Origin: Syntrophobacterales bacterium | GTDB lineage: Bacteria; Desulfobacterota; Syntrophobacteria; Syntrophobacterales; Thermodesulforhabdaceae | DNA: 36,136 nt | Assembly (NCBI GenBank): GCA_026992355.1 | Contig: JALXAE010000292.1 | Coordinates: 1-36,136, forward strand | Direction of reading: 5' to 3' | Shown here: one piece after another, positions 2-11,591 of the stretch | How the letters are laid out: each line of letters starts with the position of its first letter | How positions within the stretch are numbered: the stretch's first letter is position 1 | Made by a program: the position numbers and the translations under genes | Notes under the pieces: generated by a model | Databases searched by the model: none | The model's input: the letters and a program-made list of their open reading frames with translations, nothing else | What the model was told of the DNA's origin: nothing

Positions 2-886
2 CAATAAATCATCAAATGTTCTTAGCTGAAAGCCACCATGTCTGTTTTTCCTTAATATTGCTCCTCCTGATAACTCAACCAAATTTCGTATAGCAGCTTC
101 AGCTTGTGGAACTAGAATATGTATGGATTCAATATATTTTTCATCCAAAAACGCTGAAATACCCTTCTCAATCAATTCAATTTTTGATTTATCAAAAATT
201 GGACTTTTCAAAATATAATTAGAAATATCAGCAGGAGTAGGATTATATGTTTCTTTTAGCTTATTAAAAGAGTGTCTCAAGAAAAAGGATTCAATACCCA
301 TGTTTTGGGACATTTGGTGTATTATATTGCCCTCGAGATCATCTTCTATTCCACCAATAGTGGCGACTGGCCTACCCCTATCATCTTGTAATATCTTTGT
401 AAATAGAAATGAGATAGGGTAATTATTCGCAAGCTCAAGAACTTCCTGCTCTACTTTACCCCTTTGTGGTATAAAATGTATAGCAATACGTTTTAAAGAT
501 TCATCAAGACCACCTTTAATTATCGCTTCTAAATAAGCATTTAGCTTTTCCATTGGAATTTCAGTAGAATGAGAAAATGACTGCATGCTCTCAACAATTT
601 TAGGCCCGACCTCAGAAATCTTTTTCGACACTTCATCTGCTTTATCTCTAAGACCAAAATTCGAATATATGTTATAAAGATGTTGATACCAAGAGGAAGC
701 TATCACGGGAGCCTGCCCTTCACAAGCATTCTCAAAGCAATTGCCTACAAGTTCGATAATTCTCTTAACATCTTCATTTTTCCCAATTTTCCCAAAGTAA
801 TTGGCTAGGGGAATCCTTGCTGAGTCACATACCCACGGAGATTGCTGTCGCGATATTCTTTTTAATCTATCTTCTAACCCCCATAA
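2..886 (-). pseudogene. DUF4209-like protein, 5'-truncated and running off the window edge
   Basis: The minus strand is open from about 886 to the window edge and reads as a convincing protein. It includes ARIPLANYFGKIGKNEDVKR near the upstream end, then a segment with SFFLRHSFNKL, and near the window edge HILVPQAEAAIRNLVELSGG followed by GGFQLRTFDDLL. The late PQxEAAxRN segment and the final GG(F)Q...DDLL resemble DUF4209-type proteins, a family of unknown biochemical role, recalled without a search. There is no in-frame start codon upstream of the recognisable part, and the adjoining DNA carries an IS110-type transposase, so the 5' end was probably removed by insertion. The C-terminus continues beyond base 1. 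The upstream boundary is approximate; the frame stays open to about 960 but stops looking protein-like. Confidence 0.55.
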
Positions 887-889
887 CGT

Positions 890-2330
890 TTGTACGAGAC
901 AACAAAGATGAAACTTTGGAGGAAATAGGTCATAATAGCTTTTTTGTAATTAACAACCCAAGCCTTAGAAAGGAGGCTATTATAACCATGGGGAAGGATA
1001 GCACAATTTTATCAGTGGTTCACCCTATTTGTTGTGGATTGGATGTTCATAAGGAGAGTATTGTTGCTACATTGTTGTTCACGGATGCCGGAGGTGAGGA
1101 GCAGAGCGAAACAAGGGTGTTTGGGACATTTACTGACGAGTTAAAGAATCTGAGGCAATGGTTATTGAGACATCATTGTCCTGTGGTTGCTATGGAAAGT
1201 ACTGGTATTTATTGGCGTTGTGTACACAACGTTTTGGAGGGTCACGTTGAAGTCATTTTGGTTAATGCAAGGCATATTAAGAACGTACCTGGGTGAAAGA
1301 CGGACATAGAGGACAATAAATGGTTGGCGGGGTTGTTGAGACATGGTCTTGTACGTAGGAGTTTTATTCCTCCCAAGGATGTAAGGCAGTGGCGGGAGTT
1401 AAGCAGACTTCGCCAAAAGAACAGAGACACTCTTGGAGACTACAAGCGTCGTGTTCATAAGTTGTTTGAATTAGCCAATATCAAAATTGGCTCTGTAATG
1501 TCGGATTTGTTTGATGTTACCGGTTGCAATTTGATTGCTTTGTTGATGGATTGTCCGTGGGATATCACAGAGCAGGATATTAGGGAGTGTGTCAGGGGCA
1601 GTTTACAGGACAAAGTGAAGGAGTTGTATCGGAGTATACAGGGATTTTTCGAAAAGCATCATTGTTTTGAATTGACTAGTTTGATGCGTATCATTAGCAC
1701 TATTGAGGAAGAGAACAGAGGGATTGATGCAAGAATGAGGGAGTTGCTCAGTGAGCATCAAGAGTTAATTGAACGTATGGATGAAGTTCCTGGAATCAAT
1801 GAGCTCTCTGCCCATTACATCTTAAGTGAGCTTGGTCCCAAATTATATAGTTTTGCCACCGCTTAGGCATTGGCATCGTGGGCTGGATTGTGCCCTGGCA
1901 ACAATGAAACTGCAGGTAAGCGCTACAGTGACCACTCACCAGTGAAAAAACATCATCTAAAGACCATAATGATTGAAGTGGCTTGGACTGCTGTGAGGAA
2001 AAAAGGAACGTATTATAATGATAAATACTGGCGACTTCGCTATCGTTTGGGACCCAAAAAAGCTATTGTAGCTATAGCACATCGGTTCATAAAGGCCTTA
2101 CATTTCATCATAAAAAAGGACACCGTTACAAGGAGCTAGGAGATCAATATCTCTCAAAAAGGAGCAGGGCGAATAAACTAGGAAAGCTCAAACGTCAGAC
2201 AAAAGAGCTTGGTTTCGAGTTGGTTGCAGTCGCAAGCTCATAGAAGCAGAAACCATAAGACAACTAATTTGGAGGTCGATTCTGAAATGAAGCCGTAGAG
2301 TACGATGACTAACATGACCGGCAGTCATCT
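890..2330 (+). mobile_element. IS110-family insertion sequence, degenerate
   Basis: An IS110-type transposase reading frame occupies most of this stretch and abuts a truncated gene on the left. IS110 elements normally lack terminal inverted repeats and make no clear target duplication, so neither end can be fixed from one copy; both coordinates are estimates. The left end is placed where the minus-strand gene stops looking protein-like, and the right end shortly after the shifted C-terminal frame stops at 2243. No second copy is present in the window. Confidence 0.55.
988..2243 (+). pseudogene. IS110-family transposase, broken by two in-frame stops and a -1 frame break
   Basis: Translation should start at ATG 988 behind an AGGAGG-like site at 970-975. 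The N-terminal DEDD nuclease-like domain is seen in CGLDVHK, then MESTGIYW, then KTDIEDNKW. The C-terminal Ser-containing part is seen in SWAGLCPGNNETAGKR. Three lesions lie in the path. TGA at 1294-1296 sits between VPG and KTDIED, where relatives usually have Arg (CGA to TGA is one transition). TAG at 1864-1866 lies just before ALASWAG. Near the end, the zero frame stops at 2137-2139, but the family-like tail (YKELGDQYLSKR) continues in the -1 frame to TAG 2241-2243. The change of frame falls at A AAA AAG (2112-2118). Repaired length would be about 418 aa, normal for the family. Most likely inactive. Confidence 0.85.
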
Positions 2331-2757: not shown

Positions 2758-2786
2758 TTGACCATATCTGCTTCAAAATTTAAAAG
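2758..2786 (+). promoter_or_regulatory. Candidate sigma-70 promoter for cbiK
   Basis: TTGACC at 2758-2763, a 17-base spacer, and TAAAAG at 2781-2786. The expected transcription start, around 2793, coincides with the first base of the riboswitch P1 stem, which supports the assignment. Confidence 0.55.
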
Positions 2787-2792
2787 AGTGGC

Positions 2793-2970
2793 GTGTGGTG
2801 CCCGCATGGGCTTAAAAGGGAAGCTGGTGAGAATCCAGCACGGTCCCGGCCGCTGTGATAAGGGGACAAAAGCTGCAAAAAGCCACTGGCTTGTACTTTT
2901 CCACGAGAGAAGGCAAGCTGGGAAGGCGCAGTGAGTAGAATGATCCTTAGAGTCAGAAGACCTGCCACAC
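2793..2970 (+). ncRNA. Cobalamin riboswitch (aptamer)
   Basis: The order and wording of the conserved blocks match the adenosylcobalamin aptamer. They are AAAAGGGAA near 2814, GGTGAGAATCC near 2826, a CCGCTGTGA-type block near 2850, GCCACTGGC at the B12-box region near 2881, GGGAAGGCGC near 2920, and AGTCAGAAGACCTGCC at 2951-2966. The P1 stem can be drawn between GTGTGG (2793-2798) and CCACAC (2965-2970). Together with the terminator at 3041-3083 it should switch cbiK off when cobalamin is plentiful. Confidence 0.93.
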
Positions 2971-3040
2971 GGTGAAAGGTTATTACTGTATCCTGTCATG
3001 AGACAGGGTTAGAAAAAGGGTGAAGCAAACACGGGTGCAG

Positions 3041-3083
3041 CCCTTGTAACAAGGCTTGATACGGCCTGTTATGAGGGTTTTTT
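3041..3083 (+). terminator. Intrinsic terminator, riboswitch expression platform
   Basis: CCCTTGTAACA (3041-3051) pairs with TGTTATGAGGG (3067-3077) in an 11-bp stem with two G-U pairs. Six T residues follow at 3078-3083. It lies 42 bases before the cbiK start, as expected of a transcription-terminating riboswitch. An earlier hairpin, CCTGTC/GACAGG at 2992-3007, has no T-run and may take part in the alternative fold. Confidence 0.75.
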
Positions 3084-3124
3084 ATTTTCCGGTAATGGAA
3101 CTAAAAATTACAAGGAGGTTTGTT

Positions 3125-4102
3125 ATGAAACTTGTCAAATTGTTCTTTGGTTTGTGTGTTGCCTTCATGATGGTTTCTCATAACTTAAGTATGGCAATAG
3201 ACAAACCTGAGTCTAAAACAGCCATTGTCGTTGCAGCCTTTGGAACCACTTATCCAAAGGCACTTACATCACTGCTGAACATTAGAAATGCCATAGAAAA
3301 AGAATTTCCCAACACTAAAGTAAAAATGGCCTTCACTTCAAATATTATAAGAGAAATTTGGCACAAAAGACTAAATGACGAAAAATGGAAAAACAGACAA
3401 GACCTCCCAAAAGACATTTTCTATGTGAAAGGACCCCTTGCAACTATTGCTGATCTTCAGGACCAAGGATACAAAACAATAATTGTTCAACCTACTCACT
3501 TTTATGCTGGTGAAGAATTTATGGATCTAATGTCTTATATAAATGGGCTGAAGTCTATAAAAACCATAAAGCAAAAATATATGCCTTTTGAAAAATTAGT
3601 ACTCGGAAGACCTCTTACGGGTAAGTGGGGGCCAGAGCATGATTTTAATGAAGATTTGGAAAAAACTGCGATGGCTTTGAAAAAAGATGTTGAATACGCC
3701 AGAAAAAAGGATGCTGCTCTTGTGTATATGGGACATGGAAATGAATTTTTCTCAACGGGAGTTTACGCGCATCTACAGGAAATCATGAGAAAAATGTATG
3801 CACCGACCAAGATATTTATTGGCACTGTGGAAGGTTTCCCGTCTCTAGATGATGTTGTAAAAGGCCTTGTTCATTCAAAAGTAAAAAAAGTGGTTTTAAA
3901 ACCGCTCATGATGGTCGCTGGAGATCACGCTAACAACGACATGGCAGGTCCCGATAAAGATTCATGGAAATCAGTCTTTGAATCAAAAAACATAAAAGTG
4001 TACCCGGTTCTTGAAGGACTCGGCGAAAACCCAGAGATCGTAAAGCTTTTCTTAGAACATGTAAAAGACGCAGCAAAAGACAACGGTATTTCTCTAAAGT
4101 AA
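3125..4102 (+). CDS. cbiK: Periplasmic sirohydrochlorin cobaltochelatase (CbiK type)
   Basis: This 325-aa class II chelatase is expected to insert Co2+ into sirohydrochlorin, an early step of the anaerobic cobalamin route. Family-type motifs are AAFGTTYP (38-45), PTHFYAGEE with H125, YMGHGNEFF with H204, and VAGDHANNDM with H268; the histidines are the likely metal and catalytic ligands. Residues 1-24 form a signal peptide (Lys-rich start, hydrophobic core, cleavage after SMA), so it acts in the periplasm, as described for the Desulfovibrio CbiK-P form. The start chosen is ATG 3125 with AAGGAGG at 3112-3118. A longer in-frame start at 3056 would lie inside the terminator hairpin and is rejected. 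It stands alone downstream of a cobalamin riboswitch, with no other cobalamin gene in the window. Confidence 0.92.
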   Translation: MKLVKLFFGLCVAFMMVSHNLSMAIDKPESKTAIVVAAFGTTYPKALTSLLNIRNAIEKEFPNTKVKMAFTSNIIREIWHKRLNDEKWKNRQDLPKDIFYVKGPLATIADLQDQGYKTIIVQPTHFYAGEEFMDLMSYINGLKSIKTIKQKYMPFEKLVLGRPLTGKWGPEHDFNEDLEKTAMALKKDVEYARKKDAALVYMGHGNEFFSTGVYAHLQEIMRKMYAPTKIFIGTVEGFPSLDDVVKGLVHSKVKKVVLKPLMMVAGDHANNDMAGPDKDSWKSVFESKNIKVYPVLEGLGENPEIVKLFLEHVKDAAKDNGISLK

Positions 4103-10037: not shown

Positions 10038-11591
10038 ATGGCAACGGTTGCTGAAAAAATCAAAGAACTCCGAGAACGAGAAGCCAAGATAAAGGAAATG
10101 GGCGGGCCAAAAGCGGTCGCCAAGCAACACGAACGAGGCAAGCTTACAGCAAGAGAACGCATTGAGTACTTTTTTGACCCCGGTACATTTCAGGAACTGG
10201 ATATTTTTGTGAAACATAGAGGTACTCTTTTTGGTTTGGACAAGATGGAAATTCCCGCAGATGGGGTTGTTACTGGGTACGGGAAAGTCAATGGTCGAGA
10301 AGTTTTTGCCTTTTCACAGGATTTCACCGCTAGAGCTGGAACACTCGGCGAAATGCACGCAAAAAAAATATGCAAGGTCATGGATCTTGCTCTAAAGGCC
10401 GGAAAACCTCTCGTAGGATTCAACGATTCTGGGGGCGCTCGAATTCAGGAAGGTGTGGATGCCCTCTCCGGCTACGGACAGATCTTTTACAGGAATGCCA
10501 TAGCCTCGGGAGTAATACCTCAAATTTCAGCAATAATGGGGCCATGCGCCGGAGGAGCCGTGTATTCACCGGCCATGACCGATTTCGTTTTCATGGTTAA
10601 AAACAGTAGTTATATGTTCATTACCGGACCAGATGTCATAAAATCCGTCTTAGGAGAAGTAATTACTCAGGAAGACCTTGGTGGTGCAATGGCTCACTGT
10701 TCAAAAAGCGGGGTTGCACACTTTGCCTGCGAAAACGACAAACATGCAATTGATATGATAAAACAATTGCTAAGCTACCTCCCTGACAACAACATAGAAG
10801 ACCCGCCCTATGTTGCTCCCAAAGATGATCCAAACAGAATCAGCCCAGCGTTGGATTCAATAATCCCGGATAATCCTATGGGAGCCTATGATGTAAAAGA
10901 TGTCATAAAAGAAATTGTCGATGATGGTGATTTCTTCGAAGTGCACGAATATTATGCTCAAAATATGGTTGTAGGATTTGCACGCCTTAATGGCCATGTA
11001 ATAGGAATAATAGCAAACCAGCCAAAGGTACTTGCAGGATGCCTTGACATTGATTCGTCAGACAAAGCAACTAGATTTATTCGCTTTTGTGACGCCTTTA
11101 ACATTCCTCTTTTGACTTTGGCTGATGTCCCAGGCTATTTGCCCGGCAAGCAGCAGGAATGGGGTGGTATAATCAGACACGGCGCAAAACTCCTGTGGTG
11201 TTATTCTGAAGCCACTGTACCCAAGATGACCTTAATTTTGAGAAAAGATTATGGCGGCTCATATTTAGCAATGTGCTCCAGAGATCTTGGCGCTGATTTA
11301 GTTTTTGCATGGCCTACTGCTGAAATTGCTGTCATGGGTGCAGAAGGAGCGGCGAATATCATCTTCCGTAAAGAAATTCAATCAGCTCCGGATCCAGAAG
11401 CAAAGAGAAAAGAAAAAATCGAAGAATACAGAAACCTTCTCTATAATCCCTATATCGCAGCTTCCAGAGGATATATCGATCGTGTCATAGTCCCAAGCGA
11501 GACTAGACCAAGGTTAATTGAGGCTCTAGAGCTACTAAAATCCAAAAAACAAGCACTACCTCCTAAAAAGCACGGTAATATACCTATGTAA
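10038..11591 (+). CDS. Acyl-CoA carboxyltransferase (propionyl-CoA / methylmalonyl-CoA type)
   Basis: A 517-aa biotin-dependent carboxyltransferase of the PccB/MmdA family. It moves CO2 between carboxybiotin and an acyl-CoA, most likely interconverting propionyl-CoA and methylmalonyl-CoA. The N-terminal crotonase fold shows HERGKLTARERI, GFNDSGGARIQEGVDAL and IMGPCAGGAVYSPAMTDF, with the GG pairs forming an oxyanion hole. The C-terminal half shows LADVPGYLPGKQQEWGGIIR and MGAEGAANIIFR. Length and ending (KHGNIPM) are typical of propionyl/methylmalonyl enzymes; other substrates such as glutaconyl-CoA cannot be excluded. ATG 10038 has AAGGAGA. It is a single-gene unit with its own promoter and terminator; no biotin carrier or decarboxylase subunit is in the window, so its partners must be elsewhere. 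Confidence 0.9.
   Translation: MATVAEKIKELREREAKIKEMGGPKAVAKQHERGKLTARERIEYFFDPGTFQELDIFVKHRGTLFGLDKMEIPADGVVTGYGKVNGREVFAFSQDFTARAGTLGEMHAKKICKVMDLALKAGKPLVGFNDSGGARIQEGVDALSGYGQIFYRNAIASGVIPQISAIMGPCAGGAVYSPAMTDFVFMVKNSSYMFITGPDVIKSVLGEVITQEDLGGAMAHCSKSGVAHFACENDKHAIDMIKQLLSYLPDNNIEDPPYVAPKDDPNRISPALDSIIPDNPMGAYDVKDVIKEIVDDGDFFEVHEYYAQNMVVGFARLNGHVIGIIANQPKVLAGCLDIDSSDKATRFIRFCDAFNIPLLTLADVPGYLPGKQQEWGGIIRHGAKLLWCYSEATVPKMTLILRKDYGGSYLAMCSRDLGADLVFAWPTAEIAVMGAEGAANIIFRKEIQSAPDPEAKRKEKIEEYRNLLYNPYIAASRGYIDRVIVPSETRPRLIEALELLKSKKQALPPKKHGNIPM

Follow-up and report, generated by a model that had tools for sequence, protein, structure and literature searches.

A cobalamin riboswitch precedes a solitary gene for a predicted exported CbiK-family chelatase in a Syntrophobacterales genome

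The window analysed here is the whole 36,136-nucleotide stretch of contig JALXAE010000292.1 from a Syntrophobacterales bacterium (assembly GCA_026992355.1). Near its start it carries a riboswitch leader and a single gene for a CbiK-family protein with a predicted signal peptide. This confirms as a whole what the first-pass annotation of this DNA had described: a riboswitch, a terminator and an exported CbiK. The features, in window coordinates, are as follows.

2758..2786, + strand: sigma-70-like promoter, a weak match read from the sequence (TTGACC at 2758-2763, 17 nt, TAAAAG at 2781-2786)
2779..2983, + strand: cobalamin riboswitch aptamer (RF00174)
3016..3045, + strand: predicted antiterminator, 3016-3021 pairing with 3040-3045 (folds of partial transcripts; AAGGG...CCCTT kept in four leaders)
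3039..3083, + strand: intrinsic terminator, stem 3039-3079 and six T at 3078-3083 (minimum-energy fold)
3112..3119, + strand: ribosome-binding site aaggaggt, read from the sequence and kept in four leaders
3125..4102, + strand: CbiK-family chelatase of 325 residues, predicted to be exported (PF06180; predicted structure)
3125..3196, + strand: predicted Sec signal peptide, residues 1-24, with a positive start, a hydrophobic core and SMA before the presumed cut
3356..3394, + strand: 13-residue insert relative to D. vulgaris CbiKP, IWHKRLNDEKWKN (alignment)
3515..3517, + strand: Glu131, equivalent of Salmonella Glu89 (alignment)
3734..3736, + strand: His204, equivalent of catalytic His145 of Salmonella CbiK (alignment)
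3926..3928, + strand: His268, equivalent of catalytic His207 of Salmonella CbiK (alignment)

The leader matches the cobalamin riboswitch family RF00174 at 2779-2983 on the plus strand with 115.4 bits, well above the gathering score of 31.5 (E 1.9e-28), and the match runs over model positions 1-189, so that the aptamer is full, in line with the complete cobalamin aptamer and B12 control first read from the letters. Downstream of it an 11-bp terminator with six T residues had been described; the six T stand, at 3078-3083, while the minimum-energy fold of 3039-3079 replaces the 11 bp by a stem of 17 pairs interrupted by one bulge. The expression platform folds better than its shuffles (z -3.12), and in four of five partial transcripts ending at 3045-3070 residues 3016-3021 pair with 3040-3045, a pairing that would compete with the 5' arm of the terminator. 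The promoter at 2758-2786 is absent from the output of a consensus scan, as is the terminator at 3039-3083 from that of a simple terminator scan. The leader can be aligned with those of three related loci (L042, L043 and L044), each with a homologous gene downstream; judged by eye, the terminator arms differ across the four leaders yet stay mostly complementary, and a TTGAC box followed 16-18 nt on by a TAAAAG or TATAAA box is readable in all three related leaders. From this reading of the leader we regard control of the cbiK unit by the cobalamin riboswitch as almost certain. A riboswitch before cbiKP is already published: PMC11124144 describes a cobalamin riboswitch close to cbiKP for O. alaskensis, attributing one to D. 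vulgaris also, and PMC545781 places a B12 element upstream of cbiK-cbiL and btuCDF in Desulfovibrio.

The 325-residue product scores 258.9 bits against the CbiK family profile PF06180 (cut-off 26.2), and its structure model (pLDDT 92.3) has its best fold matches in D. vulgaris CbiKP, Salmonella CbiK and FetB. Its signal peptide, MKLVKLFFGLCVAFMMVSHNLSMA, was called by a home-made rule on hydrophobicity and start codons, used for signal peptides throughout, and agrees with the export signal proposed in the first-pass annotation. The cytoplasmic sirohydrochlorin cobaltochelatase of Salmonella (PDB 1qgo), which unlike the window CbiK presumably has no signal peptide, shares the fold and has its Glu89, His145 and His207 matched in the window protein; Glu89, which we take to be a site with a role in the Salmonella enzyme, corresponds to Glu131. 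Catalytic roles of the two histidines of the C-terminal half, His145 and His207, in CbiK class II chelatases are given in PMC7689651. The likeness to the periplasmic Desulfovibrio enzyme, also proposed earlier, is upheld by 2xvx/2xvz among the best matches: D. vulgaris CbiKP, a periplasmic cobaltochelatase, has the same fold and catalytic histidines, and is exported according to PMC4063343, as predicted for the window CbiK. The two proteins nevertheless share only ~30% identity and differ in the 13-residue insert of the window protein, in the exchange of His96/His103 for Met/Asn and in the window gene standing alone. The window CbiK, a class II chelatase with its catalytic histidines in place, is very probably exported and likely to be active, most likely as a sirohydrochlorin cobaltochelatase. 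It reaches 169.4 bits with the NCBIfam equivalog model NF047852 (SiroCoChCbiK), below the required 400. Nor do the genome's cytoplasmic CbiK (221.9) and two further CbiKs tested reach it, which means that this strict model fails to distinguish the window protein from them.

An alignment of 122 rows, restricted to those that have an FGT-type motif and, from the motif on, at least 230 residues, falls into two parts: 76 rows, the window included, are at least ~50% identical to the window protein, 46 rows, counting two reference chains, are at most 40% identical, and none lies between. The subfamily of 76 is 50-83% identical to the window protein over the mature part and has the 13-residue insert. 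The catalytic histidine pair is present in 76/76 subfamily rows and 46/46 others, the glutamate equivalent to Salmonella Glu89 in 75/76, including the window, and 46/46, and a signal peptide by the home-made rule in 74/76 and, the two reference chains excluded, in 34/44. The position of D. vulgaris His96, which together with His103 we take to be a haem ligand of CbiKP, holds His in 42 of the 46 others and in 3 of the 76 subfamily rows. CbiKP has reportedly been proposed as a haem-binding or haem-transport protein, and the same could be imagined for the window protein from the fold common to CbiKP and FetB, its export and the FecCD-type ABC importers often found beside its relatives. With Met at the His96 position in the window (not His in 73/76 subfamily rows) and Asn at that of His103, the protein lacks the haem-binding pair of CbiKP, and its gene is placed under control by B12, not haem or iron; we consider a haem-related function very improbable.

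The gene lies between an IS110 transposase remnant (window 817-1296, + strand, 5' of the riboswitch) and a convergent PPDK_N gene downstream, and is therefore solitary, which bears out the earlier description of a lone gene; its three nearest relatives (L042, L043 and L044) are likewise solitary as far as their contigs extend. The carboxyltransferase gene at 10038-11591 shares 89-92% identity with its counterpart in each of the four same-family genomes, so the contig fits the genome, and this likeness, together with a composition like that of eight other contigs of the genome, makes bin contamination unlikely. A viral origin was rejected as well, none of 160 pattern-matching stretches in an IMG/VR scan encoding a relative. 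The four same-family genomes have no subfamily member (best identities to the window CbiK 37-40%). Among 59 genomes searched, a full-length match of at least 50% identity occurs only in the window's own (G000), G021, G025 and G043, and a Desulfohalobiaceae MAG holds a match at 77-78% identity. We take horizontal acquisition of the window cbiK to be the likely reading.

A search of the rest of the genome for a second, cytoplasmic CbiK or CbiX and for other riboswitch-controlled genes, as the first-pass annotation had suggested, was positive on both counts. Contig C89 encodes a CbiK without a signal peptide, predicted to be cytoplasmic, with its own cobalamin riboswitch upstream. The genome has five cobalamin riboswitches, the window's included, and two others precede a CobI/CbiL gene on C315 (methylase model over cut-off) and a TonB-dependent receptor gene on C85, for which 25 of the 25 NCBIfam matches listed are below cut-off. 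On contig C52 (G000) a cobalamin riboswitch stands before a gene for a radical SAM/SPASM protein (L012:6165-7538, - strand). Contig C170 holds cbiC, btuC-like and btuD-like genes together, and BtuF-like matches lie on C100 and, weakly, C17, the C100 protein scoring below the cut-offs of BtuF and other substrate-specific NCBIfam models. In a quick tree with Salmonella CbiK as outgroup, which samples 31 of the 76 subfamily rows and includes some long branches, the C89 CbiK clusters (98 SH-aLRT) with the CbiK proteins encoded by the four same-family genomes; all four of these have a signal peptide by the home-made rule, which suggests that the C89 protein probably lost its own. A cryptic or frameshifted signal peptide before it was looked for and rejected, with none in the three frames of its strand and a ribosome-binding site of its own.

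How often an exported CbiK is the only copy was surveyed in the window's own genome together with 58 relatives, 59 in all, with CbiD alone standing for the de novo pathway. CbiD is found in 51/59. CbiX was dismissed as a hidden cytoplasmic chelatase, since it exceeds 80 bits in only 7/59 genomes, all of one genus, and other PF01903 matches reach at most 30.6 bits and lie at CbiK genes. Thirty-seven of the 59 genomes are good (at least 90% complete, at most 5% contaminated), and 28 of these have CbiD and no CbiX above 80 bits. In 18 of the 28, every CbiK has a signal peptide; five have both kinds (the window's included), one has only a CbiK without a signal peptide, whose start by eye resembles a broken one, two have fragments or unclear cases and two have none. 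Four of the 18 are single-contig genomes (G012, G017, G031 and G046), and less certain cases among them are G052, with a contig-edge fragment, and G031, with a second copy of weak call. Profile searches for CbiK and CbiX found neither in G014 and G041, good genomes with CbiD, and this group may therefore possess a cytoplasmic chelatase that goes unrecognised, such as one of CysG/Met8 type. Lack of a cobalt importer was rejected as a driving force, CbiM being present in 52/59 genomes, the window's included, and NicO in 5/59. The CbiM family also holds nickel importers; with CbiM/NikM-type importers in 52/59 genomes, a periplasmic detour is not forced.

These counts could also be met by an ordinary biosynthetic CbiK whose signal peptide is ineffective, or of which dual targeting keeps enough in the cytoplasm. 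Such an enzyme would explain a sole signal-peptide CbiK beside CbiD without any transport of sirohydrochlorin, and the signal was judged by the home-made rule only. Signal peptides nevertheless recur across two deep groups (74/76 and 34/44 rows), and PMC4063343 describes D. vulgaris CbiKP as periplasmic, so that we find this explanation quite improbable.

The genes around the subfamily cbiK were examined in the best 80 loci, kept from 274 relatives found in GTDB contigs; 51 subfamily loci have at least 3.5 kb of downstream sequence. Within 6 kb downstream on the same strand, these 51 have BtuF-like genes in 38, BtuC-like in 35, BtuD-like in 35 and a tetrapyrrole methylase in 31; all three Btu-like genes are missing from 13. 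The labels come from home-made profiles on sequence clusters, with one member each of nine clusters scanned against Pfam, and 'BtuCDF' is a name given by context to proteins that the profiles place in the FecCD, ABC_tran and Peripla_BP_2 classes. These classes serve haem and siderophores too, and importer genes are common beside cob/cbi genes, so adjacency is weak proof of what the importer carries. Eight methylases were scanned, all over cut-off: among six from subfamily loci four are CobI/CbiL and two CobA, and those of a sister-group operon and of C315 are CobI/CbiL. CbiL uses the product of CbiK. In a search scoring at most 50 candidates per genome, at least 30 of 38 subfamily genomes (a set without completeness values) have a cobalamin riboswitch no more than 2.5 kb upstream of the best cbiK match and on its strand, and at least 22 have one no more than 700 bp upstream; in three of the eight genomes without one, cbiK is within ~315 bases of the contig start. 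In the sister group all 17 signal-peptide cbiK loci scanned, out of 35 such loci, have a riboswitch upstream.

Several further genes recur at these loci. In 7 of the best 80 loci (L106, L107, L112, L114, L115, L119 and L121) cbiK and btuC are separated by genes for an ABC ATPase and an ABC-2 permease, a candidate tetrapyrrole exporter; in an eighth, L056, the pair stands after btuF, and no such pair was seen adjoining the window cbiK. The one ABC-2 permease scanned is over the cut-off of PF01061 and below those of NodJ/DrrB-type models. A protein of ~101 residues is encoded directly before cbiK at L070:7412-7717 (+ strand), with the same cluster in L053, L054 and L058; the L070 copy has no Pfam or NCBIfam match, and the distance from a cobalamin riboswitch to the cbiK downstream of it is 634-851 bases in these four genomes. 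A porin-like gene (e.g. L048:6656-7909, + strand), with a Pfam Porin_4 score below cut-off, is found directly before cbiK in six loci and directly after it in three, and in the L048 genome the riboswitch is upstream of the porin-like gene. A 350-residue permease recurrent in cbiK operons (L051:9781-10833, + strand), without a Pfam family and with one NCBIfam model only, far below cut-off, is perhaps the predicted cobalt transporter CbtX. BtuF-like proteins at L015:2446-3870 (+ strand) and L014:41-1465 (- strand) have a C-terminal extension that by eye resembles SLH repeats.

The first-pass annotation had favoured capture of cobalt or tetrapyrrole over simple biosynthesis. The exported protein would then bind or metalate external tetrapyrroles or corrinoid fragments, and the ABC importer would take up the product in a salvage route. 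B12-riboswitch control is common to the window cbiK and the TonB-dependent receptor gene on C85, and the porin-like gene directly before cbiK in six loci would suit uptake. FetB of Porphyromonas gingivalis (PDB 9b86), a homologue with the CbiK fold and 28% identity to the window CbiK, is another precedent, for which we know of no B12 riboswitch context. PMC13402209 describes FetB as acting on protoporphyrin and reports that it exchanges metal in porphyrins. Capture nevertheless leaves unexplained the cbiL or cobA directly downstream in some operons and the 18 of 28 good genomes with CbiD, no CbiX and only exported CbiK, and we judge it unlikely. The preference for capture is less supported, given BtuF-like genes in 38/51 loci, a methylase in 31/51 and a sole exported CbiK in 18/28 genomes: subfamily operons with importer and cbiL, and the sole exported copies, favour a biosynthesis-linked role, and together point to the B12 pathway, although they are compatible with capture too.

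A role in cobalamin supply seems to us reasonably probable, and the more specific proposal, a B12-repressed exported chelatase serving that supply, somewhat favoured on balance. At low cellular B12, read-through of the terminator would allow CbiK to be made; the enzyme would be exported to the periplasm and there insert cobalt into sirohydrochlorin that had left the cytoplasm, and the resulting cobalt-sirohydrochlorin (cobalt-factor II) would be brought back by a BtuCDF-like importer and methylated by CbiL. Because the native CbiK of this genome appears to be cytoplasmic, the window enzyme would provide an additional, probably horizontally acquired, periplasmic route. That the full route, with sirohydrochlorin passing out, being metalated by an exported CbiK and returning for CbiL, operates in many sulfate reducers and their kin is in keeping with the operons and with an exported CbiK as the sole copy, and is put forward tentatively, as a possibility rather than an expectation. 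A literature search covering few subscription papers found no paper stating that an exported cobaltochelatase is the sole one or that sirohydrochlorin goes out and back, no description of a subfamily with the insert and without a His96 equivalent, and no report of how frequently an exported CbiK is the only copy or of a native signal-peptide-free CbiK beside a probably acquired exported one.

To our knowledge the role of periplasmic CbiK is still open. The survey makes it testable, the natural test strains being those with a sole, signal-peptide CbiK, with CbiD and without CbiX. With the exported CbiK often the sole copy found in relatives, one may ask whether the B12 precursor receives its cobalt outside the cytoplasm. 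Were the out-and-back route true, cobalt for B12 would enter the cytoplasm as a tetrapyrrole complex, and if the exported CbiK is needed for B12 synthesis in these organisms, one step in the making of a core cofactor would take place beyond the cytoplasm.
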